This document shows positions 234 through 46,802 of a stretch of 64,000 nt of DNA, one piece after another. The notes under the pieces are model-generated. The model was not told where the DNA came from and did no database searches. It saw only the letters and a list, made by a program, of their open reading frames with translations. The stretch lies in the NCBI GenBank assembly GCA_017631885.1, contig JAGBSH010000031.1, positions 1 to 64,000 of the forward strand. Direction: 5' to 3'. This stretch comes from Fibrobacteraceae bacterium. Lineage in GTDB: Bacteria; Fibrobacterota; Fibrobacteria; Fibrobacterales; Fibrobacteraceae. How positions within the stretch are numbered: position 1 is the first letter of the stretch; the number at the start of each line of letters is the position of its first letter. Both the position numbers and the translations under genes were made by a program.

Positions 234-545
234 TCAGAAAAATTGAATTGTATCTAAAGATTTTGGCCAGTTTTTTGGTGCTTTAGAATATCCAAAATGA
301 CTATAAATTTCTGAAAATTCTTTATCTGCAATGTTTAACAAACAAACTGTTGAGCGAGGGATTATTGAACTTATTATTTTATTCTTATGAACTCTGGCAT
401 TTGCGGCTGTAGAGCAATAACGCACATACATTCCTTTTTGAATTTTACTAAACCCTTCTTTTTCTAAATGCTTTGTAAACAAAAGCATATTTTGCCTACC
501 ACTTTTACAATATCTTGGAAAATCAAAAATAGCAACTACCCACAT
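234..545 (-). CDS. cas2: CRISPR-associated endonuclease Cas2 (type II-like)
   Basis: Cas2 dimerises between two Cas1 dimers to form the integrase that inserts new spacers into a CRISPR array. The 103-residue protein starts MWVVAIFDFPR: a ferredoxin-like first strand with the conserved Asp (D8), followed by the helix and GMYVRYCST strand typical of Cas2 of type II systems. The start is supported by GAGGA about six bases upstream, inside the end of cas1; the two genes overlap by 10 bases, so translation is probably coupled. The type II call rests on resemblance of both Cas1 and Cas2 to the Neisseria-like family. Confidence 0.9.
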   Translation of the reverse strand: MWVVAIFDFPRYCKSGRQNMLLFTKHLEKEGFSKIQKGMYVRYCSTAANARVHKNKIISSIIPRSTVCLLNIADKEFSEIYSHFGYSKAPKNWPKSLDTIQFF

Positions 546-1429
546 ACAATCCTCGGATAAACAATATTCTTTGTTTCACCCATTAAAAATTTTGTGACTG
601 ACGCTGTTGTATAACTCAAACAAGTATTTAATTGCACCATTTGTTCGCCTAAAGGAACACTTGTATAAAATAATTCTAAGAACATGCCTTTTATATTTTT
701 ATTCAAAGTCTTTTGTTTTGTACAAAATAATTTATATACAATTTGATCTACAAAAGGTCTATAAGGTTCCATAATATCATCTGCTAAAGGAAACGCATTG
801 TAATAATTCCGATGAAAAATTCCTAGGGAAGGTAGTAATCCACTTGACATTAGTGCTCGTGCTATTGCGGCTCGCAATAAAGCATACCCATAATTCAATT
901 GATTGTTTGGGTATTCCCCAAATCTATCACGGATAAAATTTTTCCCAAAGAGTTCTTTCCAATAAAATTGCGCCGCTAGTCCTTCTCTGTTACTTGAATC
1001 TCCACTTAAAACACTTGATGCGTATTTAAACATTTTTTCATTCTTTTTATTTAGAGATTTTAAAAACAACGCTTGGTTTTTAATTTTAGCCTCAACTATA
1101 TTTTTCCACATTTGCTTTTTCAAAGGTTGCGATGCATTTAGTTGTAACCTGAAATATTTTTCCTGCAATGAATTAGCATCTAAATTCATTAACATAGATA
1201 TAGGCATGTGTTTTTCATTACAATAAACAACGGCAACATTATATTCTGAAAGTTTTGCTATAAGCGGTGTCGTTAACGATGCTGAATGATTATCTATAAG
1301 TATTGTTCCAATATCTTCAATCGCTCTAAAACATACTTCGTCCGGATTTTCTTTGTATGCGATTTTTAATAAAGAATTGTGCAATGATAATTGAACAGGG
1401 TTTTCAAAAACAAGCGTTTGCTTAGGCAT
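536..1429 (-). CDS. cas1: CRISPR-associated endonuclease Cas1 (type II-like)
   Basis: Cas1 is the metal-dependent integrase that joins prespacers to the leader-proximal repeat. At 297 residues it has the usual type II length. Expected catalytic residues are visible: Glu149 in SNREGLAAQFYW, His206 in GIFHRNYYNAF, and Asp218 in ADDIMEPYRPFVD. The NREG and DxMEPxRPxVD signatures match type II Cas1 (NMENI type). The start has a strong AAGGAG eight bases upstream. It is the first gene of its run: a terminator of the preceding gene lies upstream and cas9, which normally precedes cas1, is absent there. It probably has its own promoter in 1430-1524. Confidence 0.93.
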   Translation of the reverse strand: MPKQTLVFENPVQLSLHNSLLKIAYKENPDEVCFRAIEDIGTILIDNHSASLTTPLIAKLSEYNVAVVYCNEKHMPISMLMNLDANSLQEKYFRLQLNASQPLKKQMWKNIVEAKIKNQALFLKSLNKKNEKMFKYASSVLSGDSSNREGLAAQFYWKELFGKNFIRDRFGEYPNNQLNYGYALLRAAIARALMSSGLLPSLGIFHRNYYNAFPLADDIMEPYRPFVDQIVYKLFCTKQKTLNKNIKGMFLELFYTSVPLGEQMVQLNTCLSYTTASVTKFLMGETKNIVYPRIVCG

Positions 1430-1592: not shown

Positions 1593-3773
1593 TTAGAATC
1601 TAAAGAGCAAGCCAAAACGCATTTGGCCATCGCGAACGCCTTCGTTATCGCCTACGTCTTTAATAGAAGAAAAGTCAAATTGGAAAACATCAGAAAGCAT
1701 AAAGCCAAAGCCTAAATCAACTTCTTGACGTTTACCTGTTTTATCGTAAAGATAACCTACACGCAAAGCAACTGTGTTTGCATAAATGTATTCCATACCA
1801 ACATTGAATACACCTTGCAATAACGAGTTCTTTGCAGCAGTTAAACCGTCCCCACCAAGCTCAGGTTCTACAATAGATTTCCAAGCTGAAATGTAGAATG
1901 GCTCTGGGTTTCCTTTATCATCATCAATAATAACTTCACGATTATAATCCCCAGCAATAACTAATTTATGGTCTGCTAATGTTAACAAATCATACGCAAG
2001 TCCTAAACGCCATGTCAAAGGGATTGGGTCTTCATTTGTTTTATCGACATAATAAACACTTGGACCAATATTATTCAAAACAACCGCAAAACTTAAATCT
2101 TCAACGAATAAATCTTTTTTCAGAACGCCGACATCAAACGCATAACCAAGTGTCGTTGCCTTTTCGCCACCAACAGAAGCACCAGAACTCAAATCAGAAT
2201 AAAAAAGCTTAGCAGTCAAACCTAAACCCCAACCGCGACCAAGAGAAGTTCCATAACTAAAGCCACCAACAATTTCATAACTATTATGAGCAACTAAATC
2301 ATCAGAAGTATATTCATCAGAAACAACAGTTGAACCAAAAGAAACAAAGTTCAAGAAAAATCCCAACGTTCCCCATTCAGCAACAGGAACTGTCATCGCA
2401 GCATACAAATGATAAAGGTCCGGAATATTTAAAACAGGAAGCAGTTGTTCGTAAAAGAAAACCAATTGGTAGTCAGCATCTTTATAAAGTTCCATACCAG
2501 CATTTGTACTAAACCAGACATCGTTACCTTGCGGCAAAACAGCATAAACATGATTATCAGAAAGACCATTGCCAGAGTGATAATGATTCCATTCATCATC
2601 TTGCTTTTTTTCTTCTTCTCCAGGGCGGCGTTCTAGTTCAGCTTTCTTGCCACTTGCCGTTGCATAATCTGGCAAGTAACGCCAAACACCTTTATTGGTT
2701 GCAATCCATACAGCACCTTTGCGGTCAACTGAAATGTCATTTACAATATTATCTTCAAAACGAACTTGTTCCCATTTTCTCAAATTAAAATGAGAAAGTC
2801 CGCCTTCATGAGCAGCCCAAACATGGCCAGAGCTATCAACGACAATAGCATTTGGTTCTAAATTAAAAATTCCATCTTCTTCTGTGAAAAGGCTCCAACG
2901 GTCTTTATCATTGTTACTCTTTTTTGGAATCAATCGGGCAATACCTGCTCCATGAACAGAGACATAAAGTTCTTTTCTTAATTCAGACCAGGCAAGCCCG
3001 CGAATATCTTGTTTAGGTAACACCACACCTTTGCGTTCTACCGTTCCATTTCTGTAAGAAAAGAGGCCGTCATTTGTACCCACCCAAAGTGTAGCCCCTT
3101 GGTTTGCAAGTGCTGTAATGCGCACTTTACCCAGTTCTGATTCAAACGATTTCCAAGAACGACCATCAAAGCGGAACAAACCTTTTGGCGTACCCACCCA
3201 AAGCTTTTCAGTCCTGGTTTCATATAAAAGAGCTGTAATAGTATCTTTTACAACAAGGTTCCAAGGGATTTTTACATCTACCAAAAACGATTCATCGGCA
3301 GCACTTTCTATGCCATTATATTTTTTCACTTGACGTACATATTCATCAAGACCGCGTTCAGTGCCAGCAAAAACACGAACCGCATCTCTGATTTTTGCAT
3401 TGCCTTCAAGTTCTACTTTATGGTATTCCACCCAATCATCGCCATCATATTTTAAAATACCAGCAACAGTCCCTGCCCACAATTCACTTTTAGAGAAAAA
3501 GCCTGGGCGAGTTCTAGCTGAAAGTTTCGTAAACTGCGGCGCGTTTTTAGAACTGGCTGGGTAAGAAACCATCCATTCATCAGAAAGCGGTCCAAAAGCA
3601 AGGCCCGCTGGGTTATAATACATTGCAGTCGCATCGTCTGCAACAGCTGCACCGACTTCTCCCATACCAAGCTGACGCGTGCCCACTGGCATTTGAAGAG
3701 TAATAATCGCCGAACCGGCTGCCGAAGCTAAAACAGGAAAAAGAAATACAAGAAAGAAAAAGTACTTACGCAA
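1593..3773 (-). CDS. PorV/PorQ-like outer-membrane protein with inserted two-component-regulator-type beta-propeller
   Basis: The 726-residue protein has a signal peptide (LRKYFFFLVFLFPVLASA), then a PorV-like segment at about 30-65 (RQLGMGEVGAAVADDATAMYYNPAGLA). Near residue 75 it switches to repeated propeller blades (WVGTPKGLFRFDG, WVGTNDGLFSY, WIATNKGVWRY, WFSTNAGMELY) up to about 431, then returns to outer-membrane strands ending with the aromatic RFGLLFRF. PorV shuttles T9SS cargo in Bacteroidota; the blade motifs are those of hybrid-histidine-kinase sensor propellers. I chose a TTG start at 3773: GGAG lies five bases upstream and it gives a clean signal peptide with an 8-base overlap to the gene before. 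An ATG at 3806 would add 11 residues. Role in export or sensing is inferred. Confidence 0.72.
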   Translation of the reverse strand: MRKYFFFLVFLFPVLASAAGSAIITLQMPVGTRQLGMGEVGAAVADDATAMYYNPAGLAFGPLSDEWMVSYPASSKNAPQFTKLSARTRPGFFSKSELWAGTVAGILKYDGDDWVEYHKVELEGNAKIRDAVRVFAGTERGLDEYVRQVKKYNGIESAADESFLVDVKIPWNLVVKDTITALLYETRTEKLWVGTPKGLFRFDGRSWKSFESELGKVRITALANQGATLWVGTNDGLFSYRNGTVERKGVVLPKQDIRGLAWSELRKELYVSVHGAGIARLIPKKSNNDKDRWSLFTEEDGIFNLEPNAIVVDSSGHVWAAHEGGLSHFNLRKWEQVRFEDNIVNDISVDRKGAVWIATNKGVWRYLPDYATASGKKAELERRPGEEEKKQDDEWNHYHSGNGLSDNHVYAVLPQGNDVWFSTNAGMELYKDADYQLVFFYEQLLPVLNIPDLYHLYAAMTVPVAEWGTLGFFLNFVSFGSTVVSDEYTSDDLVAHNSYEIVGGFSYGTSLGRGWGLGLTAKLFYSDLSSGASVGGEKATTLGYAFDVGVLKKDLFVEDLSFAVVLNNIGPSVYYVDKTNEDPIPLTWRLGLAYDLLTLADHKLVIAGDYNREVIIDDDKGNPEPFYISAWKSIVEPELGGDGLTAAKNSLLQGVFNVGMEYIYANTVALRVGYLYDKTGKRQEVDLGFGFMLSDVFQFDFSSIKDVGDNEGVRDGQMRFGLLFRF

Positions 3774-4332
3774 ATTGTCTCCAATCGGGCACATGATAGA
3801 CACCATTATCTGGAACTACAGCCTTCCAACCTGATTTCCCTGGGTTTTCCCAAGGTAATTTCGGCATCAAGCGACAATCGCAGCCAAAAACATAAGGCGG
3901 AAGCAATTCAGCATGATTTCGAATCTGTTCCCGAGTAATAAAATTTTCTTCGTTCAAGAATTTACAATATTGCTTGCCTTTCGGACCAAGTTCAATACGA
4001 TAAGTTACAGTTCCATTTCTATCGCCTTCATCAATAATCCGAATGGTTTCTTCGTAAGTTTTTTGCCATTGTTCAAAATAGCGTGACTTTTCTTCTTCAG
4101 AAATATTTTGAGAAGAAAGCCATTTTTTCAAATCTGTTTCAGAAGGCTTTACAGATTCCATAGAAAGTCTTGCAGGGCGAACCACAACTGCATATTGACC
4201 AGATACATCTATAGGTGGTGGTGCTTCTTCTTTTTCTTCAGCACTATGAATAACTACATAAGCCCCGATCGCTGCCAAAATGATCGAAAGCACAATAATA
4301 GTCACAACAATTAAAATAACAGATAAATCCAT
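3766..4332 (-). CDS. Membrane-anchored hypothetical protein
   Basis: The 188-residue protein has one N-terminal membrane segment (about residues 4-28, rich in Ile, Val and Leu), then a charged linker with a PPP motif and a soluble domain of mixed helices and strands. The C-terminal half holds a CDC motif (FGCDCRLMP) and Pro/Trp-rich stretches. I do not recognise the family. It is the first gene of a two-gene unit with the PorV-propeller gene, which it overlaps by eight bases, so the two may work together at the envelope. The ATG at 4332 is preferred to an upstream TTG at 4344; neither has a good ribosome site. Confidence 0.6.
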   Translation of the reverse strand: MDLSVILIVVTIIVLSIILAAIGAYVVIHSAEEKEEAPPPIDVSGQYAVVVRPARLSMESVKPSETDLKKWLSSQNISEEEKSRYFEQWQKTYEETIRIIDEGDRNGTVTYRIELGPKGKQYCKFLNEENFITREQIRNHAELLPPYVFGCDCRLMPKLPWENPGKSGWKAVVPDNGVYHVPDWRQFA

Positions 4333-37269: not shown

Positions 37270-38631
37270 TTACTTTCCAATCAAGTGAATGACTTTTCCC
37301 AGACGCGTCCAACGGATTTTAAATGGAATTCGCCACCACGTAAATGGTTTATTCAAGGCAAATGTGCCGTCGCTATTTTCAAACGAGAAATAAATCACGA
37401 ATGCTTTGGCTTTGATATTTCTTGTTGCCACCATTCCCCAATAACGGCTATCAGCAGAATTATCTCTATTATCTCCCATCATAAAATAAACTGGTGCTTG
37501 AACAACATATTTTGTGATAGGTTTTCCATCAAATAAAATCTGGTACTTCAAATCATAAACATCAGCAGAAACTAAAGTATCTGCATTGAGCGAATCTTTA
37601 GAAAGAGAATCAATTACAGGTTTTACTGCATTTAAAGCTTTTATATGGTTTTCTAAATCTTGTAATTGAGTCCCTTCAAAATTCATGTAGGAAACTTGGC
37701 GAGTAAAGCCTTCAAATTTCTTTCTCGGGTCAATCATTGGTAAAAAGCCTGTGCGAGCAAAAGAAGTAAAGAAAGCAAAAGATACAGGACCTTCTAATGT
37801 ATCGCCTTGCTGTAAAGAAATTCCCACTGCTTGACGATTAGCCAAAACCGTATTCAAAAGTAGCCCTCTATCACTTTCTACAGGGACTTTAAAATCATCA
37901 AAAACAAAATTATCTGCTGGCAAACCATTGATAGACAAATGCAAATCTAATTCTACTTTTACATCTGGGTTTTCTTGCACTATTAAAGAACGAATGCGCC
38001 ATAATTCATAAAGAGAAAGAGAATCTAAATATAATGTATCTTGTGGCATAGGTAAACGGAATTTAGCCACATAATCTCTTGGAGAATAACTCCTATAAGT
38101 TGCCGTAAACTTTCCATAACCTGGGAGATTTTTTTGTTCTACACCATTTAAATAAAAACGGCCTTCTTTAATTTCTATTGTATCACCACTTAAAGCAACA
38201 CAACGTTTGATAAAATCTTTGGGCCCATCAGCATAATGCACCAAGTGTGGATTTCCATTTTCAGGTTTTGAATCCCAATATAAATTTCCAAACATCAAAG
38301 CATTTACCAAATGCGTGTAGCGTTTAGAATCATAGTCAGGATATTCAGGTTCTCCAGGGTAACGGAATATAACAACATCACCCCGCTCTGGTGTTGTTAA
38401 TGCCGGGAACTTTTCATCTGAAAAAGGTATCGGTGAACCATAAACAAATTTCAATCCCAATAAAAAATCACCTACTAATAAGGTATCTTCCATAGAACCA
38501 CTTGGTATTTGAAAAGCCTGTATAACATATTGAATAACAATAAGAGCTAAAGCAACAGGAACTAAAATTTCCCGAGCAACACCTTTTAAAAAACGGCCTA
38601 CAAAAGAATCTGTTTTTGCTGTCTTTTCCAT
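37270..38631 (-). CDS. lepB: Signal peptidase I with large insertion
   Basis: LepB cleaves Sec and Tat signal peptides with a Ser/Lys dyad. The 453-residue protein has one N-terminal membrane segment (about 20-40), Ser46 in IPSGSMEDTL, Lys142 in FIKRCVALSGDTIEI, and box E GDNRDNSADSRYWG near residue 405. Between them lies an extra domain of roughly 220 residues (about 165-390), making it longer than E. coli LepB (324). Similar insertions are known from Bacteroidota. I use the ATG at 38631 (GGAAG upstream), since an upstream frame would include a hairpin at 38648-38679. Confidence 0.9.
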   Translation of the reverse strand: MEKTAKTDSFVGRFLKGVAREILVPVALALIVIQYVIQAFQIPSGSMEDTLLVGDFLLGLKFVYGSPIPFSDEKFPALTTPERGDVVIFRYPGEPEYPDYDSKRYTHLVNALMFGNLYWDSKPENGNPHLVHYADGPKDFIKRCVALSGDTIEIKEGRFYLNGVEQKNLPGYGKFTATYRSYSPRDYVAKFRLPMPQDTLYLDSLSLYELWRIRSLIVQENPDVKVELDLHLSINGLPADNFVFDDFKVPVESDRGLLLNTVLANRQAVGISLQQGDTLEGPVSFAFFTSFARTGFLPMIDPRKKFEGFTRQVSYMNFEGTQLQDLENHIKALNAVKPVIDSLSKDSLNADTLVSADVYDLKYQILFDGKPITKYVVQAPVYFMMGDNRDNSADSRYWGMVATRNIKAKAFVIYFSFENSDGTFALNKPFTWWRIPFKIRWTRLGKVIHLIGK

Positions 38632-38647
38632 AGCTTCCAAAAATAGA

Positions 38648-38679
38648 AAATCGTATAGACTTCTACGTCTATACGATTT
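38648..38679 (-). terminator. Strong hairpin between the LytTR regulator gene and lepB
   Basis: Thirteen-base perfect arms (AAATCGTATAGAC at 38648-38660, complement at 38667-38679) enclose a six-base loop. On the minus strand it lies 16 bases after the regulator's stop and is followed by TTTTCTATTTTT, a broken T-run, just before the lepB ribosome site. It may act as a terminator or attenuator, or protect the mRNA end. Confidence 0.6.
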
Positions 38680-38695
38680 CAAAAACACTCTCAAT

Positions 38696-39950: not shown

Positions 39951-40838
39951 TTATTTTTTCAAGACAATACGAAAACCGCGATTATAAAGCGCTTCTTCAG
40001 GCAAGGCTTTTTCTCTATTATCACTAGCAAGTTCAGCTAAAGACGAAGACCAAGAACCGCCACGGAAAACGCGTTCAGACCCCTTCTCAGGACCTCTAGG
40101 ATTTTCTTCAAAAGACACCCCTGAATAAGCTGAATACCAATCTTCTGTCCATTCAGAAACATTTCCTGCCATATCATAAAGTCCATAAGCATTAGGCAAA
40201 AAACTACCAACAGGCGTTACTCCTGACTCAGAATAATAATTTGCATACAAATGAGTTTTATCAGAAGCACCCCAATAATACTTTGTAGATGTCCCTGCTC
40301 GAATGGCTATTTCCCATTCAGCTTCTCTTGGTAAGCGAATAGTTGAATCTAGCGAAAGAATTTTTAAATCCAGTAAAACACCAGCAGTTCCCACAGAAGA
40401 ATAAACATAATTTGTATCTAACCCATACGCTTTAGAAAGCGCATTACAAAAACGAACTGCATCATACCAAGAAACATTCGTTACTGGCAAAGAATCACCT
40501 TCTTTTTTTTGAGTTGGCAAATCTAAATAGGTTGCATATTGTTTTTGCGTAATTTCTGTTTCTAAAATTTGAAAAGGCGAAACTGTTACTTCTGTTACTC
40601 CACGAATAAATTGTGATTTCGGAATAGAAACCCATTTCATTCCTAAAGAATCTTCAATATTCTCTTGTGAAGAAGATGATGACAAAGAAGGTTCTACAGA
40701 AGAACTATTTGCAGAGCCATTCCCTTCTGGCGTAAAATTTTCTAATTCTTCTGAAGAAGAAACTGTATTTGAACAAGCATTCACAAGAAGCAAAATGCAA
40801 GCAAAAGAAAGAAAAAACAAAATGCTATTCTTTCTCAT
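39951..40838 (-). CDS. SUMF1/FGE-type domain lipoprotein
   Basis: The 295-residue protein has a lipoprotein signal (LLLVNAC), a serine-rich linker of the kind seen in Fibrobacter surface lipoproteins, and a formylglycine-generating-enzyme-like domain (about 65-295): EITQKQYATYL, PVTNVSWYDAVRFCNALS, RLPREAEWEIAIRAG, YGLYDMAGNVSEWTEDWY and the closing VFRGGSWSSS to NRGFRIVLKK. The active-site cysteine pair of true sulfatase-modifying enzymes is not visible, so a C-type-lectin-like binding role is likelier. AGAGG precedes the ATG. It follows the M6-like gene by nine bases. Confidence 0.83.
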   Translation of the reverse strand: MRKNSILFFLSFACILLLVNACSNTVSSSEELENFTPEGNGSANSSSVEPSLSSSSSQENIEDSLGMKWVSIPKSQFIRGVTEVTVSPFQILETEITQKQYATYLDLPTQKKEGDSLPVTNVSWYDAVRFCNALSKAYGLDTNYVYSSVGTAGVLLDLKILSLDSTIRLPREAEWEIAIRAGTSTKYYWGASDKTHLYANYYSESGVTPVGSFLPNAYGLYDMAGNVSEWTEDWYSAYSGVSFEENPRGPEKGSERVFRGGSWSSSLAELASDNREKALPEEALYNRGFRIVLKK

Positions 40839-40847
40839 AAAAACCTC

Positions 40848-43800
40848 TTAACGAATAACTCCTAAACGATATATTTTTTTCTTTGTCTTTCCACTTTCAA
40901 AATGAACTTTCAGGCGAACAGTATAGACATCACTTCCTAAGGAAGAAAGATCGATAGCATCCCATTGATTCATTCCTTTTTTCGGATATAACATTTTTTC
41001 TTTGCGAACGCAAAGGCCTGTTATGTCAAAAATTTCAATTGTTGCATACTCTGCATCAGAACCTATTTCAAAACGAGATTTTGCATTGCCACCCCTGACA
41101 GGGTTTGGATACATATAAAAATCTTTGATTTCATCTTTGTCTTTTTCTGAAACAGGTTCTTTTAAAATAGAAACATCAAACCACGCATTGCGTTCATTTC
41201 CATTCCCAGGCATAGCCCAATTAGTATTTCTTTCTTTAGCACTTGGCAAGCGGAAAGCGGCTACATTATTTCTATGAAACGCATATAATTCAAGACCTTT
41301 AAGCGAATCAACCGCATTACCAACTAAAATAGTCATTGGCTTAATAGTATCTCCATATTCAAAGGTGCCAGCTTGTAAAGGAAATTGTTTGTCTAGCATT
41401 TTACCTTTACCTGTAAATGCATACAACAAGCCACCTGGTGCCGGAGCTAAAATTTCAGGCAATGAATCACCTACAACATCAACCAATAACGGGTCTGTAG
41501 AAAATTCATATTCAGAAAGGCCTCTCGTAAAACGAGCAGGGAACCCCGGAAGAGCTATACCTCGAGAATCTACAGCATACACTTTATTTTCTCCAAGAAA
41601 AACAGCATCGGGCAAACCATCACCTTGTAAATCAGCAATAGCTATTGGTGACGTTTCATGATAACTCAAACCTTCTTGTGAAGAACCTCTGTCATATTGT
41701 CTTGGAGTTGAAAGTAATGAAAGGGAATCCCCTACTTTTACAAAAGTTCCATAGCCTTTACTTCCAAGAACAAAAACTTCTGAAATGCCATTTCTATCAA
41801 AATCAGAACAAGCCACTCGGAATTTTTGGTTCTTCGGTGAAAGAACACCCTTCACATTTTGCGGTAATTGAAAACTCTTTTTATTGCCCTCTAAATCACT
41901 CACAAATAATTTTCCTGTTTTACCTGCAACTACAAATTGTAATTTTTCATCTTTACAAATTGCCAAATCTTCTGCCAAAAAATCTTCTGGAAAATCAATT
42001 GTTTCTTTTAAAGTCCATTTTCCAAAAACTGGATAAAATTGTAATTGCTTTTTAGTCGCTAATAAAGCAAGAGAATCAATAATCACAGGACCTATTAAAG
42101 GGTCTTGAACTTTTAGAACTTCGGAACTTGGGCGAACTAAATCCAAATCAGAAAATAACTCGGTCCGGACCATTTTATTTTTATGTAACGAAACAACAAT
42201 ATTATTAGTAGAAGCAAGCCCAATTAATTCTCCAAAACGTCCTAATCTATACAGAGGTTGTTCTTTAATGGAATCTTTTTCAGAAACTAGAGAAAGAGAA
42301 ACTGATGTATCCGATTCTACCAAAGGTTCGCCAAAAGCAGAAATAGCCTGAAGTGTGCCATTTTCACTTCCAAATACTAACAACCGTTCTCCATCTCTAC
42401 CAAGCATTGATGATGGATAATCAGCTAAAACTGCTGCTCTTGGGAAAGAATTCAGACCAACAGATTTTGGAAATTCTCCTGATGGTAAAGAAAGATCTTC
42501 AAATGCTATAGTAACTGAAATTACAGGAGAGGCAAAATTCAAAACACTATCTCCCATAAAGGAATTTGCATTTTTTTCTTTTCTAAATTCTTTTGGCAAA
42601 GACGCTGTTATCTGAATTCCAGTATACCCCCCTTGAACCGTTGCTGTGTTACCAAAACCATTTGGTTTAATGGTAAATACAGTATCAAATACGGAATCTT
42701 TTTTCACACGCAAATGCGGAATAATGTCTGTTCCAGAACCATAATCAAATGCATCTTGCCCTAAAGCATTTTTAAATGTTTTTCCAACTGTCAATAATCC
42801 ATCGGCTTCTACCAATGAAATGCCAAATTGATGATCGCGCAAAGTATCGCCGCCCCAAAAATTAGTAACTCCATAAGGCAAAGATTCTTTTAAATACCAT
42901 TCATTCACTTTCCATACAACAATCCCTGAAGCAGGCAAAACAGCATCATAAGAGGACGAACCAACAATTATCCCCTTCGCTTTGCGCGTATTCTTTTTAC
43001 ACTTACCTTTTGTACAAATACTGTCTTCAAAAACCAAAGAAAGACTATCTACAGGGAGCATTTTTGAAACAATGGTAGAATCATCAGAATCGCCACTCAA
43101 AAATATTTCAACTTCACCTTTTAATGAGGTGGAACGTTGTCTATTTTCTATCAATAAATATTCATTGGCACTCAATGGAACTTTTACAATTTCTGTTCCT
43201 GTATGAGAACCTGCTGCAGAAATATCAATCGTTAATGATTGGCCATATTTAGGTGTTACTTCTTTTACAGAAGACCACCCCATATAAGCTCTTAACCAAG
43301 CCGAAGGCAAAACTGGGAAAAAACCATTCCCGGCATTATACCCAGCAAAATCCATCATATCAAAATAGCCTAATCTTGAAATGCCTTTTACCACATCGTA
43401 TGTATTAGGCATTCCAAGAGCGCGTCCAACCTGATTTACAAGAATACCATTAACGCCCCAATTTAAGCCATCTTGCGAAGCCGTTTCACTCACAACCATC
43501 ACTTCTTTCAATGTATCAATTACAGAGCCTTCAAAAACAATTCCTCGGACTGAATCTCCTTCAGAAAGCCCGACAGAATCAGGAGGCAAATAACTCCAGT
43601 AATCAGCATTTACAAAAACATCCATAAAATCACCTGGAGTATCAGCGCCATTTGTTCCTAAAGAACCGCCATCAACTAAACGACTAGCTCCTGCATGCAA
43701 AATCATGTAAGCTCTTTGAGTATTTTCATTTTTTGACAAAGGAATTTTAAATGGTGAATTTTCAGATTGATGAGCTTTTTTCAAGGCATCAAAAACAAAT

Positions 43801-44213
43801 GTCATATAATCACGACTACGAGCTTCATCAAAATCAGCAACTTTTTCATCATCGCGCTTTGCCGTTCTATTATAATCAATAATGAATTTATCTAACTGAT
43901 AAGCGCTTTTCCCCGTTTCAGGAAACATTCGAAATTTTATCGCTTGTTTTCCATTACTTGCCACTTTAAAATAATCATTCACAAAATCAAAATGTTTGCG
44001 CCAATACGCAACAGTTCCCCGTCTACCTGAAGGGTCCAAACTATAATTTTCTGATGTCTCTCCAGAATCAAAAAGTCCTGTTCCGGTCGTTAAAGAATTA
44101 TCTGTTTTTTCTTCTTTAAATTCTACACGGAGAACAAATACTTCTAAAGTATCTGTCGCAAAAGCAAATCCAGTAAGCCATAAAAACAAAGCAAAAAACA
44201 ACATCTTTTTCAT
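40848..44213 (-). CDS. Secreted M6-metalloprotease-like protein without zinc site, with propeller-like region and T9SS-type C-terminal domain
   Basis: The 1121-residue protein has a signal peptide (ending GFAFA) and an N-terminal region laid out like M6 (InhA-like) peptidases: WRKHFDFVNDYFKVAS, then NWGVNGILVNQVGRALGMPNTYD and DMMDFAGYNAG. In active enzymes the last block reads HEFGH; here residues 260-264 are NQVGR, so both zinc His and the catalytic Glu are lost. The middle (about 570-1000) has FG-GAP/propeller-like stretches (ADLQGDGLPDAVFLG, VVGDSLPEILAPAPGGL). The last 85 residues (FYMYPNPVRGG, IEIFDITGLCVRKE, DLSSLGSDVYTVRLK) resemble a T9SS sorting domain. It is probably a surface binding or structural protein rather than a protease. 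Confidence 0.75.
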   Translation of the reverse strand: MKKMLFFALFLWLTGFAFATDTLEVFVLRVEFKEEKTDNSLTTGTGLFDSGETSENYSLDPSGRRGTVAYWRKHFDFVNDYFKVASNGKQAIKFRMFPETGKSAYQLDKFIIDYNRTAKRDDEKVADFDEARSRDYMTFVFDALKKAHQSENSPFKIPLSKNENTQRAYMILHAGASRLVDGGSLGTNGADTPGDFMDVFVNADYWSYLPPDSVGLSEGDSVRGIVFEGSVIDTLKEVMVVSETASQDGLNWGVNGILVNQVGRALGMPNTYDVVKGISRLGYFDMMDFAGYNAGNGFFPVLPSAWLRAYMGWSSVKEVTPKYGQSLTIDISAAGSHTGTEIVKVPLSANEYLLIENRQRSTSLKGEVEIFLSGDSDDSTIVSKMLPVDSLSLVFEDSICTKGKCKKNTRKAKGIIVGSSSYDAVLPASGIVVWKVNEWYLKESLPYGVTNFWGGDTLRDHQFGISLVEADGLLTVGKTFKNALGQDAFDYGSGTDIIPHLRVKKDSVFDTVFTIKPNGFGNTATVQGGYTGIQITASLPKEFRKEKNANSFMGDSVLNFASPVISVTIAFEDLSLPSGEFPKSVGLNSFPRAAVLADYPSSMLGRDGERLLVFGSENGTLQAISAFGEPLVESDTSVSLSLVSEKDSIKEQPLYRLGRFGELIGLASTNNIVVSLHKNKMVRTELFSDLDLVRPSSEVLKVQDPLIGPVIIDSLALLATKKQLQFYPVFGKWTLKETIDFPEDFLAEDLAICKDEKLQFVVAGKTGKLFVSDLEGNKKSFQLPQNVKGVLSPKNQKFRVACSDFDRNGISEVFVLGSKGYGTFVKVGDSLSLLSTPRQYDRGSSQEGLSYHETSPIAIADLQGDGLPDAVFLGENKVYAVDSRGIALPGFPARFTRGLSEYEFSTDPLLVDVVGDSLPEILAPAPGGLLYAFTGKGKMLDKQFPLQAGTFEYGDTIKPMTILVGNAVDSLKGLELYAFHRNNVAAFRLPSAKERNTNWAMPGNGNERNAWFDVSILKEPVSEKDKDEIKDFYMYPNPVRGGNAKSRFEIGSDAEYATIEIFDITGLCVRKEKMLYPKKGMNQWDAIDLSSLGSDVYTVRLKVHFESGKTKKKIYRLGVIR

Positions 44214-44225
44214 AAAAACCTCAAA

Positions 44226-44906
44226 TCAAATTTTTTGATAACCTAATGGAATAGGAAGCTTCCAAATACTAGAATTCCAAGTCACATCAGTTTTTATCTT
44301 TTTCACTTTTATTCTTAAATACTCTTTACCCTTTTGCAATACTAAAATTTCAGGCCACTTGAAATAAACTCGTTCTAAACCTTTTTCGAGCCAAACCACT
44401 TTTCCGTTTTCTTCGTAAAAAGAAAAAGGGATTCCTGTTTCTTCTGTTGCTTGAACAATTCGGCCATTCAAAGAATCGACACTCTTAATTTCTGTATAGG
44501 TTCTAGGCAAAATCCGTTGCTCAAAAAACGAAGCCACCTGATGAATATTCACCAAAGGAAATTCACTATTTCCAATCATTCCAACTAAATAGCCGTTTCC
44601 TTGTAAATAAGTTCTCTCTGTCGGAAACACAATATTCCATAAAGAATCAGTCCATAAAAGCGAAGCCACTCCTATTCCCATTGGCCCACTTAATTCCAAA
44701 CGATAACGTTTTTCAGGTACCGAAAATAAAACGGCTGAAAATTTTTGCCAGCCACCATCTGGTTTTTGAAATTCTAAAGAAAATGAAGCACGCAGACTAT
44801 CAACCGATTGATTAGAAACAAGAGAAGGCGAAGATGTCTTGGCACTAGAAGCACAACCTTCCAAAAAAATCAAAAATAAACAAGAAATTACTAAAAGCCG
44901 AAACAT
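44226..44906 (-). CDS. LolB/DUF4292-like lipoprotein
   Basis: The 226-residue protein has a lipoprotein signal (LLVISCLFLIFLEGC) and a domain reading FSAVLFSVPEKRYRLELSGPMGIGVASLLWTD, similar to the half-barrel lipid-binding fold of LolB and DUF4292 proteins, which handle lipoproteins at the outer membrane. I prefer the ATG at 44906 (AAGAGAG upstream); an ATG at 44939 next to the previous stop is the alternative. It follows the TPR lipoprotein gene, and that pairing resembles a TPR-lipoprotein plus LolB-like order seen in other diderms. Confidence 0.65.
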   Translation of the reverse strand: MFRLLVISCLFLIFLEGCASSAKTSSPSLVSNQSVDSLRASFSLEFQKPDGGWQKFSAVLFSVPEKRYRLELSGPMGIGVASLLWTDSLWNIVFPTERTYLQGNGYLVGMIGNSEFPLVNIHQVASFFEQRILPRTYTEIKSVDSLNGRIVQATEETGIPFSFYEENGKVVWLEKGLERVYFKWPEILVLQKGKEYLRIKVKKIKTDVTWNSSIWKLPIPLGYQKI

Positions 44907-44939
44907 TTTATTCTCTCTTAAAAACGCCCGGTTTTTCAT

Positions 44940-46802
44940 TTATGGTTTCTTTTTTGGTGGGAATTTGGCATTAGGATGCTTGGGTTCAAGTTCTCCTAAT
45001 TTTATAAAACATTCGTTTGCCATATCTTTATCGCCAAGAGCTTCTAGAACCTGGCCCAAATGATTCCAATAATCATGCTCTTGTAAAAATGAAGCATCTA
45101 AAGCAACAGCTTCTTGTAAAATTTTCAACGCCTCTTGGTATTTTCCAATTCTATACAAGCCCCAAGCTTTAGAATCTAAATAAGAAACATTTTGGGGTTC
45201 ATATTGCAAAGCCGAATCAACTAAAGCTATACCTTCTAAAACTTCTTGTTCTGAACGATTTCCATCAATTAAAGAATAGCCTAAAAAATTCATTACCAAA
45301 TGATCTTGAGGATTTTTCTTTAAAATTTCACGAAATGCTGCAAAAGCTTCATCATACCTTTTTAAACGCTCTAATAAAGAAGCTTTCAAAAAATTCATCC
45401 TTTCAGAAGTAGAATCTATTACAAGATAAGTTTCTACACTTTTTAAAGCATTCCCATAAAGAATTGCTGAAGAATCTGGTTTAGAGAAAATCAGTTTATA
45501 AGCAGAACCTGAATATATATCAGCAGCAAAAGTCAACAAAGCTAAATAAGGATGGTCTTTTAACAATGAATCATTCTTTTCAGGCTCTGCTTTTTGTTTT
45601 TCAAAATTTGTCTTTTGCTTTTCAAGTAAAACACCTAAATAAGAAATCAATTTCTGATTTTCTTTGTAAGTCATATAAAGCACTAAACGATCTCGCCAAA
45701 AAGATTCTGATTCTAAAGAATCAGCTTGTTCCATATAACGCATAGCTTTAAGAGAATCATTTTTAGTTCTTGCAATTACAGATAAATTAGCATAAGCTCT
45801 TGCTGCGACAGTGGAATCTTTTGTTATTGCAGAAAAATAAACCTCGGCAGAGTCAAGTTCACCTAATAATCTAGAAGTAACACCTTTATAAAAAAGAATC
45901 GTTGGCGTTTTAGAAGAATCACCTTGCTCTGCAATATATGAATTTAAAACCGTTTTACTTTCTTGCACTTTTTGCACATCTAATAAATGAGAAATATAAA
46001 GCAAAACAACACTTGAATCTGTTGGTAAAGCCTTGTACAATCGATTCGCAACAGAACCAACGCTATCTAACATTTGTTTTGATTCATAATAATTGATTTT
46101 TTCTAAAAGAAATTCTTTTTCTTTTGTTGCATTAAAAGCATTTTCTAAAAGAACTAAAAATGACGAATCTTGGTTATTATCTAAATACAATTGTGCTAAA
46201 CGCCCAAACATCGGTTTCATATAATTCAATCGAGGAATGAGCATAGCGTAAATCCGCATGAGTTCTTTTGTATCAACTGGTTGCATCCATTCTAGAAAAA
46301 GACTATACTCATACATTTTCATATAATCTTCTTCGTTTTCTTGAATTGCTTTTTGGAAATATATTTTAGCGGAATCTGCTTTTCCTGTTCTCAAGTAAAG
46401 AGTGGCAAGTAACCCATATTCAGCACTATTTGCCATTCCCGGATATTTTTTTGCAGGTTCAGCAACCATTAAAGCTTCGTGAAATAATTTTTTGTCAGCA
46501 AGTGCTGAGGCAAAAGTAAAAGCTAAAAAACGATTCGAAGGTTCTGCTTCTTGGGCTTTGCGCAAAAATTCAAATGCCAAATCATCTTCACCCACATGAA
46601 TCAGATAAAGATAACGCAAAAAGGCTTCTTGAGCAAGATCTGGGTTTCCCTTAGGCAAGACAACAACAGTATCTTTTTTTTCCTTTGAAAGAGTCTCTTG
46701 TGGTAATTGTTCTTTTGGAGCTGTTTTAGAAGCAGCACAAGCCGTCAAACTTAAAAGCACGGCCGATAAAATACAATACCAAATCAGAGATTTACTTTTC
46801 AT
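44940..46802 (-). CDS. Tetratricopeptide-repeat lipoprotein
   Basis: The 620-residue protein has a lipoprotein signal (ILSAVLLSLTAC) and many TPR units from about residue 60 to the end (AFEFLRKAQEAEPSNRFLAF, GKADSAKIYFQKAIQENEEDY, YDEAFAAFREILKKNPQDHL, YQEALKILQEAVALDASF). Such proteins are scaffolds at the outer membrane. It ends in a Lys/Pro tail (HPNAKFPPKKKP). It sits between a PASTA protein and a LolB-like lipoprotein in one direction with short gaps, which hints at an envelope-assembly role. Confidence 0.85.
   Translation of the reverse strand: MKSKSLIWYCILSAVLLSLTACAASKTAPKEQLPQETLSKEKKDTVVVLPKGNPDLAQEAFLRYLYLIHVGEDDLAFEFLRKAQEAEPSNRFLAFTFASALADKKLFHEALMVAEPAKKYPGMANSAEYGLLATLYLRTGKADSAKIYFQKAIQENEEDYMKMYEYSLFLEWMQPVDTKELMRIYAMLIPRLNYMKPMFGRLAQLYLDNNQDSSFLVLLENAFNATKEKEFLLEKINYYESKQMLDSVGSVANRLYKALPTDSSVVLLYISHLLDVQKVQESKTVLNSYIAEQGDSSKTPTILFYKGVTSRLLGELDSAEVYFSAITKDSTVAARAYANLSVIARTKNDSLKAMRYMEQADSLESESFWRDRLVLYMTYKENQKLISYLGVLLEKQKTNFEKQKAEPEKNDSLLKDHPYLALLTFAADIYSGSAYKLIFSKPDSSAILYGNALKSVETYLVIDSTSERMNFLKASLLERLKRYDEAFAAFREILKKNPQDHLVMNFLGYSLIDGNRSEQEVLEGIALVDSALQYEPQNVSYLDSKAWGLYRIGKYQEALKILQEAVALDASFLQEHDYWNHLGQVLEALGDKDMANECFIKLGELEPKHPNAKFPPKKKP

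Follow-up and report, generated by a model that had tools for sequence, protein, structure and literature searches.

In the type IX secretion system (T9SS) of P. gingivalis, PorU and PorZ are surface proteins that bear a C-terminal sorting domain (CTD), and each is paired with a barrel of the PorV family, PorU being held by PorV and PorZ by PorQ (PMC5562754). In eukaryotes, pseudopeptidases with binding and regulatory roles are well documented, an example being iRhom (PMC6451368). A literature search found no paper on an inactive M6 protein in the T9SS, and a search on PorV2 returned one paper, which held no relevant text. Such proteins are however known by annotation, as NCBIfam describes a T9SS-dependent M6-like inactivated metalloprotease (NF052323) in which an inactivated M6 domain is combined with a T9SS tail.

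The window analysed here, a stretch of 64,000 nucleotides from a Fibrobacteraceae genome, carries a gene for an M6-like pseudopeptidase, referred to below as M6i, which has no internal stop (Table 1). The preliminary description had given this protein a signal peptide, a propeller-like region and a sorting-type C-terminal domain, and these are borne out by reading of the sequence by eye, the AlphaFold2 model, Foldseek and Pfam.

Table 1. Features of M6i and of its neighbours in the window, with the short-form M6i loci of other genomes in the last line.
Feature	Residues of M6i	Position	Strand	Basis
PorV/PorQ-family barrel with inserted beta-propeller		1593..3806	-	NF033709 162 bits (cut-off 90); Reg_prop and PorV in Pfam
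FGE-fold lipoprotein, directly downstream of M6i (gap 10 bp)		39951..40838	-	PF03781 150 bits
M6i, M6-like pseudopeptidase gene	1-1121	40848..44213	-	1,121 aa open reading frame, ATG start
T9SS-type C-terminal sorting domain (CTD)	1029-1121	40851..41129	-	PF18962; profile match to PorZ C-terminus; seven beta-strands in secondary structure of AlphaFold2 model
Beta-propeller region	about 601-1000	41214..42413	-	AlphaFold2 strands; Foldseek propellers; FG-GAP_3
FG-GAP-like repeat inside the propeller	860-921			FG-GAP_3 8e-6, borderline
M6/InhA-like fold	21-600	42414..44153	-	Foldseek 4yu5/4yu6; NF052323 and TIGR03296
Core block	241-320	43254..43493	-	Highest conservation within M6i
Lost zinc site NQVGR, at HExxH position	260-264	43422..43436	-	Orthologue alignment
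Signal peptide (MKKMLFFALFLWLTGFAFAT)	1-20	44154..44213	-	Reading by eye; hydrophobic N-terminal helix in AlphaFold2 model
LolB/DUF4292-like lipoprotein, upstream of M6i		44226..44939	-	Name by eye; synteny
TPR lipoprotein, same gene run		44940..46802	-	TPR families in Pfam; synteny
Short-form M6i of genus g5		L030, L037, L038, L045, L046, L056, L057, L061

The AlphaFold2 model of residues 19-600 had three PDB matches at E <= 0.001 in Foldseek, all of them to the M6 immune inhibitor A2 zymogen (4yu5_B, 4yu6_A and 4yu6_B; E 4e-14 to 5e-13, probability 1.00), and the next-best match had an E value of 5.6e-3 and a probability of 0.06. The model is moderate, with a pLDDT of 72-74 that is lowest around residues 271-298 (for residues 19-600, pLDDT 72 and pTM 0.81). 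Two NCBIfam profiles matched below their cut-offs: the M6 domain TIGR03296 at residues 264-360 (8.9e-12, 45.5 bits, cut-off 110.8 bits), and NF052323 (8.5e-81, 272 bits, equivalog cut-off 600 bits). The Pfam scan of the protein recovered no M6 domain, and the genome search with PF05547 is uninformative, as the controls gave no signal with it either. The preliminary description had called the protein M6-like and named structure prediction against InhA/M6 as a check, and the match to 4yu5/4yu6 agrees with it. Compared with immune inhibitor A2, M6i lacks HExxH and carries two additional parts, a beta-propeller and a T9SS CTD; there is no obvious propeptide, and the mature chain apparently begins at the first strand of the M6 domain. 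Set against the curated M6 peptidases, M6i has the fold but neither the HExxH motif nor a TIGR03296 score above the cut-off.

Strands of the propeller were modelled with a pLDDT of mostly 85-93 and propellers are among the Foldseek matches, while the FG-GAP_3 match in the Pfam scan is borderline (26.8 bits, cut-off 26.9). For the CTD, Por_Secre_tail (PF18962) scored 25.3 bits (1.9e-5) when the protein was scanned, short of its cut-off of 27, and 30.4 bits, above the cut-off, in the genome search. TIGR04183 was matched by four of 20 M6i orthologues, and the orthologue profile matched the C-terminus of PorZ (5m11) with an E value of 0.0014 for the whole sequence. The similarity of M6i to PorZ and PorU is confined to the C-terminus, where the PorZ model scored 15.4 bits against a cut-off of 260, and full-length similarity to PorZ was not found; PorZ consists of a propeller and a CTD, and M6i differs from both PorZ and PorU in the main domain. 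The data support a description of M6i as a predicted secreted, M6-derived scaffold with a T9SS-type tail and without zinc or catalytic residues.

Residues 260-264 (NQVGR) align with HExxH, a replacement that the preliminary description had noted, and the orthologue alignment that it had set as a check found the motif intact at this site in none of 77 M6i sequences. The catalytic Glu is replaced by Gln in 75/77 and the second His by Arg in 75/77; in a set of 58 orthologues, Glu is replaced by Gln in 56 and by Leu in two, the second His by Arg in 56 and by Gln in two, and the first His is kept in two. Nineteen of 19 further orthologues from outside the window's class have NQxAR, whereas HExxH is retained by each of 30 further M6 proteins that were retrieved from these Fibrobacterota genomes. 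Sequencing error or recent decay of M6i is ruled out, as the replaced site is common to the orthologues. With no intact motif among the orthologues and a structural match to M6, neither finding that would have refuted the preliminary description was made. In a tree of 24 inactive and 10 active M6 proteins the inactive ones form a single clade (support 100/99) on a long branch (about 2 changes per column), in a tree whose root is not fixed and in which one active row is itself a long branch. Because the inactive proteins form one long-branched clade, the tree fits a single loss of the site before Fibrobacterota radiated. Mean column conservation in the orthologue alignment is 0.70 for the core block with the dead site, 0.51 for the CTD and 0.36 for the propeller. 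High conservation around the dead site is as expected if the block still binds something, and part of it may simply be scaffold.

The preliminary description had further suggested that a dead protease scaffold reused for adhesion or fibre binding would be new, and the claim of novelty holds only in part. The dead site itself is not new, because NCBIfam already names a related inactivated family. M6i is collinear with NF052323 at both ends (profile positions 40-485 and 753-1043), and all 20 orthologues of alignment A2 (M6i and 19 others) match it, the best with an E value of 1.3e-106, yet all far below the cut-off; M6i is a divergent relative on a separate branch. What is added here is the gene context, in the form of a PorV-propeller/M6i/Peptidase_MA gene triplet, together with retention across the phylum and the single inactive clade.

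An M6i orthologue was present in 100 of 100 Fibrobacterota genomes of at least 90% completeness. Among 61 relatives it was found in 59, and the two genomes without it are 77% and 79% complete. Its named loci belong to Fibrobacter and related Fibrobacterota, and by the terms tried it is not mentioned in a paper on the membrane proteome of F. succinogenes. In genus g5 the protein is shorter, at about 760-840 aa: residues about 570-858 are missing and the rest is kept, so that this genus, to judge from these sequences, can dispense with much of the propeller.

Gene order was compared in 28 genomes from outside the window's class. Directly upstream of M6i and on the same strand, 26 of them, spanning eight families, carry a gene of the PorV/PorQ family whose product has a Reg_prop propeller inserted. 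Downstream of M6i is a gene for a protein that combines Peptidase_MA with a TolB-like propeller (24/28; one of the 24 sits about 2 kb further away), and the four genomes without it comprise two contig ends and two members of genus g18. This partner is predicted to be a live protease, as HExxH is intact in 25/25 examined, the copy of the window genome included. Homologues of both neighbours occur throughout Fibrobacterota, that of the Peptidase_MA partner in 60/61 genomes, a count in which some matches may be paralogues. In the window genome the Peptidase_MA and TolB-propeller homologue lies at G000:C24, about 209.8-213.2 kb (L186), with an intact HEFSH motif and a C-terminal half that appears barrel-like by eye. 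The adjacency of the PorV-propeller, M6i and Peptidase_MA genes supports a probable shared function.

The window also encodes a PorV-propeller protein, which clearly belongs to the PorV/PorQ family (NF033709, NF052325 PorVQ2) but differs from it in the Reg_prop propeller inserted near the N-terminus and stays well short of the equivalog cut-offs for PorVQ2, PorV and PorQ. Proteins of this unusual architecture are the best PorV-family match in nearly every Fibrobacterota genome searched. The gene lies about 37 kb from M6i, a closeness that was set aside as coincidence, as in related genomes the two are separated by 200-450 kb or placed on separate contigs. At the contig end it is adjoined by a type II-like Cas1 gene (536-1429, reverse strand), and no repeat array was found in positions 1-700.

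T9SS core genes are present throughout the phylum. SprA scored above the cut-off in 60/61 genomes, PorU-family matches were found in 60/61, and PorV-family barrels in 61/61 with several per genome. Co-occurrence of the T9SS and M6i inside the phylum is uninformative, because every genome has both. The PorU of the window genome, a C25 peptidase with a CTD, is encoded just past the window end (G000:C7:64017-66284), and a PorZ-like protein with propeller and CTD is encoded elsewhere in the genome. M6i as a stand-in for a missing PorU or PorZ was therefore rejected.

On balance, and with confidence somewhat above even, we favour the explanation that M6i is an ancient pseudopeptidase of the Fibrobacterota T9SS, kept at the surface by a PorV-type propeller barrel of its own and using its cleft as a docking site. 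M6i is made with a signal peptide, and its CTD would route it via the SprA channel across the outer membrane, a crossing that is expected because it has both signals. With neither zinc ligands nor a catalytic glutamate left, the M6 fold should bind rather than cut. By analogy with PorU/PorV and PorZ/PorQ of P. gingivalis, a dedicated PorV-type barrel with a beta-propeller may hold the protein at the surface, and the conserved dead cleft may be where a T9SS client docks, or else the Peptidase_MA protease, with which M6i possibly works. Export, which we infer from the targeting signals, the complex with the barrel and the docking role are predictions. Several points stand against a role as a T9SS component. 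The operon link is only ancestral or confined to the outgroup, because the genes are dispersed in the window's own class. No role is obviously vacant, because the PorZ-like protein and PorU are also present. Finally, the CTD alone does not separate a component from cargo, because more than 30 proteins of the window genome have CTD-like tails; with 35 places in the genome matching the domain at E <= 1, the CTD by itself was rejected as evidence of a core role.

One rival reading is that M6i is ordinary, highly conserved T9SS cargo, either an adhesin or a structural protein of the surface, perhaps with a fibre-binding propeller, in which the M6 scaffold is inert filler. We regard this as unlikely, although the signal peptide, the CTD and a propeller whose FG-GAP similarity is lectin-like (PVL lectin, E 4e-5) would suit it, and the cellulases of Fibrobacter succinogenes have been proposed as T9SS cargo (PMC6851124). 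Presence in every one of the 100 near-complete genomes is unusual for an adhesin, and the dead core is the most conserved region and the propeller the least, the reverse of what a binding propeller predicts, with genus g5 doing without much of the propeller altogether. Reuse for adhesion or fibre binding, which the preliminary description had put forward, is not favoured by these results: the Pfam scan of M6i found no carbohydrate-binding module, and the phylum-wide presence and the PorV-family gene neighbour point instead to the secretion apparatus.

Within the window's class, genes for the TPR and LolB-like lipoproteins precede M6i in several families, and the order purA-CRP-PASTA-TPR-LolB-like-M6i is common to the window's family and family f3, with a gap of 13 bp between M6i and the LolB-like gene, whose product had no Pfam or NCBIfam match. 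M6i could then be an envelope-biogenesis factor that acts with these lipoproteins, the T9SS merely providing the export route. This is quite unlikely in our view, since neither genus g5 nor the outside classes showed this order, and in those classes it is the PorV-propeller and Peptidase_MA genes that adjoin M6i. The FGE-fold lipoprotein gene on the other side adjoins M6i only in the window's family. Its product has sub-threshold similarity to TIGR02171, and its identity as PorK is not supported, as the match to GldK/PorK, a ring protein of the T9SS, reached 87 bits against a cut-off of 350 and the adjacency is so limited. Further downstream, a signal peptidase I (37270-38694, reverse strand) has about 200 residues inserted between its two conserved blocks.

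A third reading, that M6i regulates the live Peptidase_MA/TolB-propeller protease and so acts on surface proteolysis and not on secretion itself, draws on the same partner gene, which is universal or nearly so, is adjacent to M6i in most of the genomes outside the class and keeps its catalytic motif. The two proteins belong however to different clans and do not form a classical active/inactive pair of one family, and their genes are unlinked in the window's class; with paralogues perhaps among the 60 matches, we give this reading little credence. That M6i is a pseudogene or the product of a sequencing error, or that it works as an enzyme through some other catalytic site, is barely credible; the first two are contradicted by orthologues across the phylum that are intact over their full length and carry the same substitutions.

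Fibrobacterota are plant-fibre degraders that are proposed to display cellulases through the type IX system, and almost all of the papers found on the parts of this system concern Bacteroidota. Strict conservation and the gene-order link to a PorV-family barrel make M6i a concrete candidate for a component of this system across the whole phylum, and one that can be tested; a bacterial pseudopeptidase located at a secretion surface would be of value in biochemistry.
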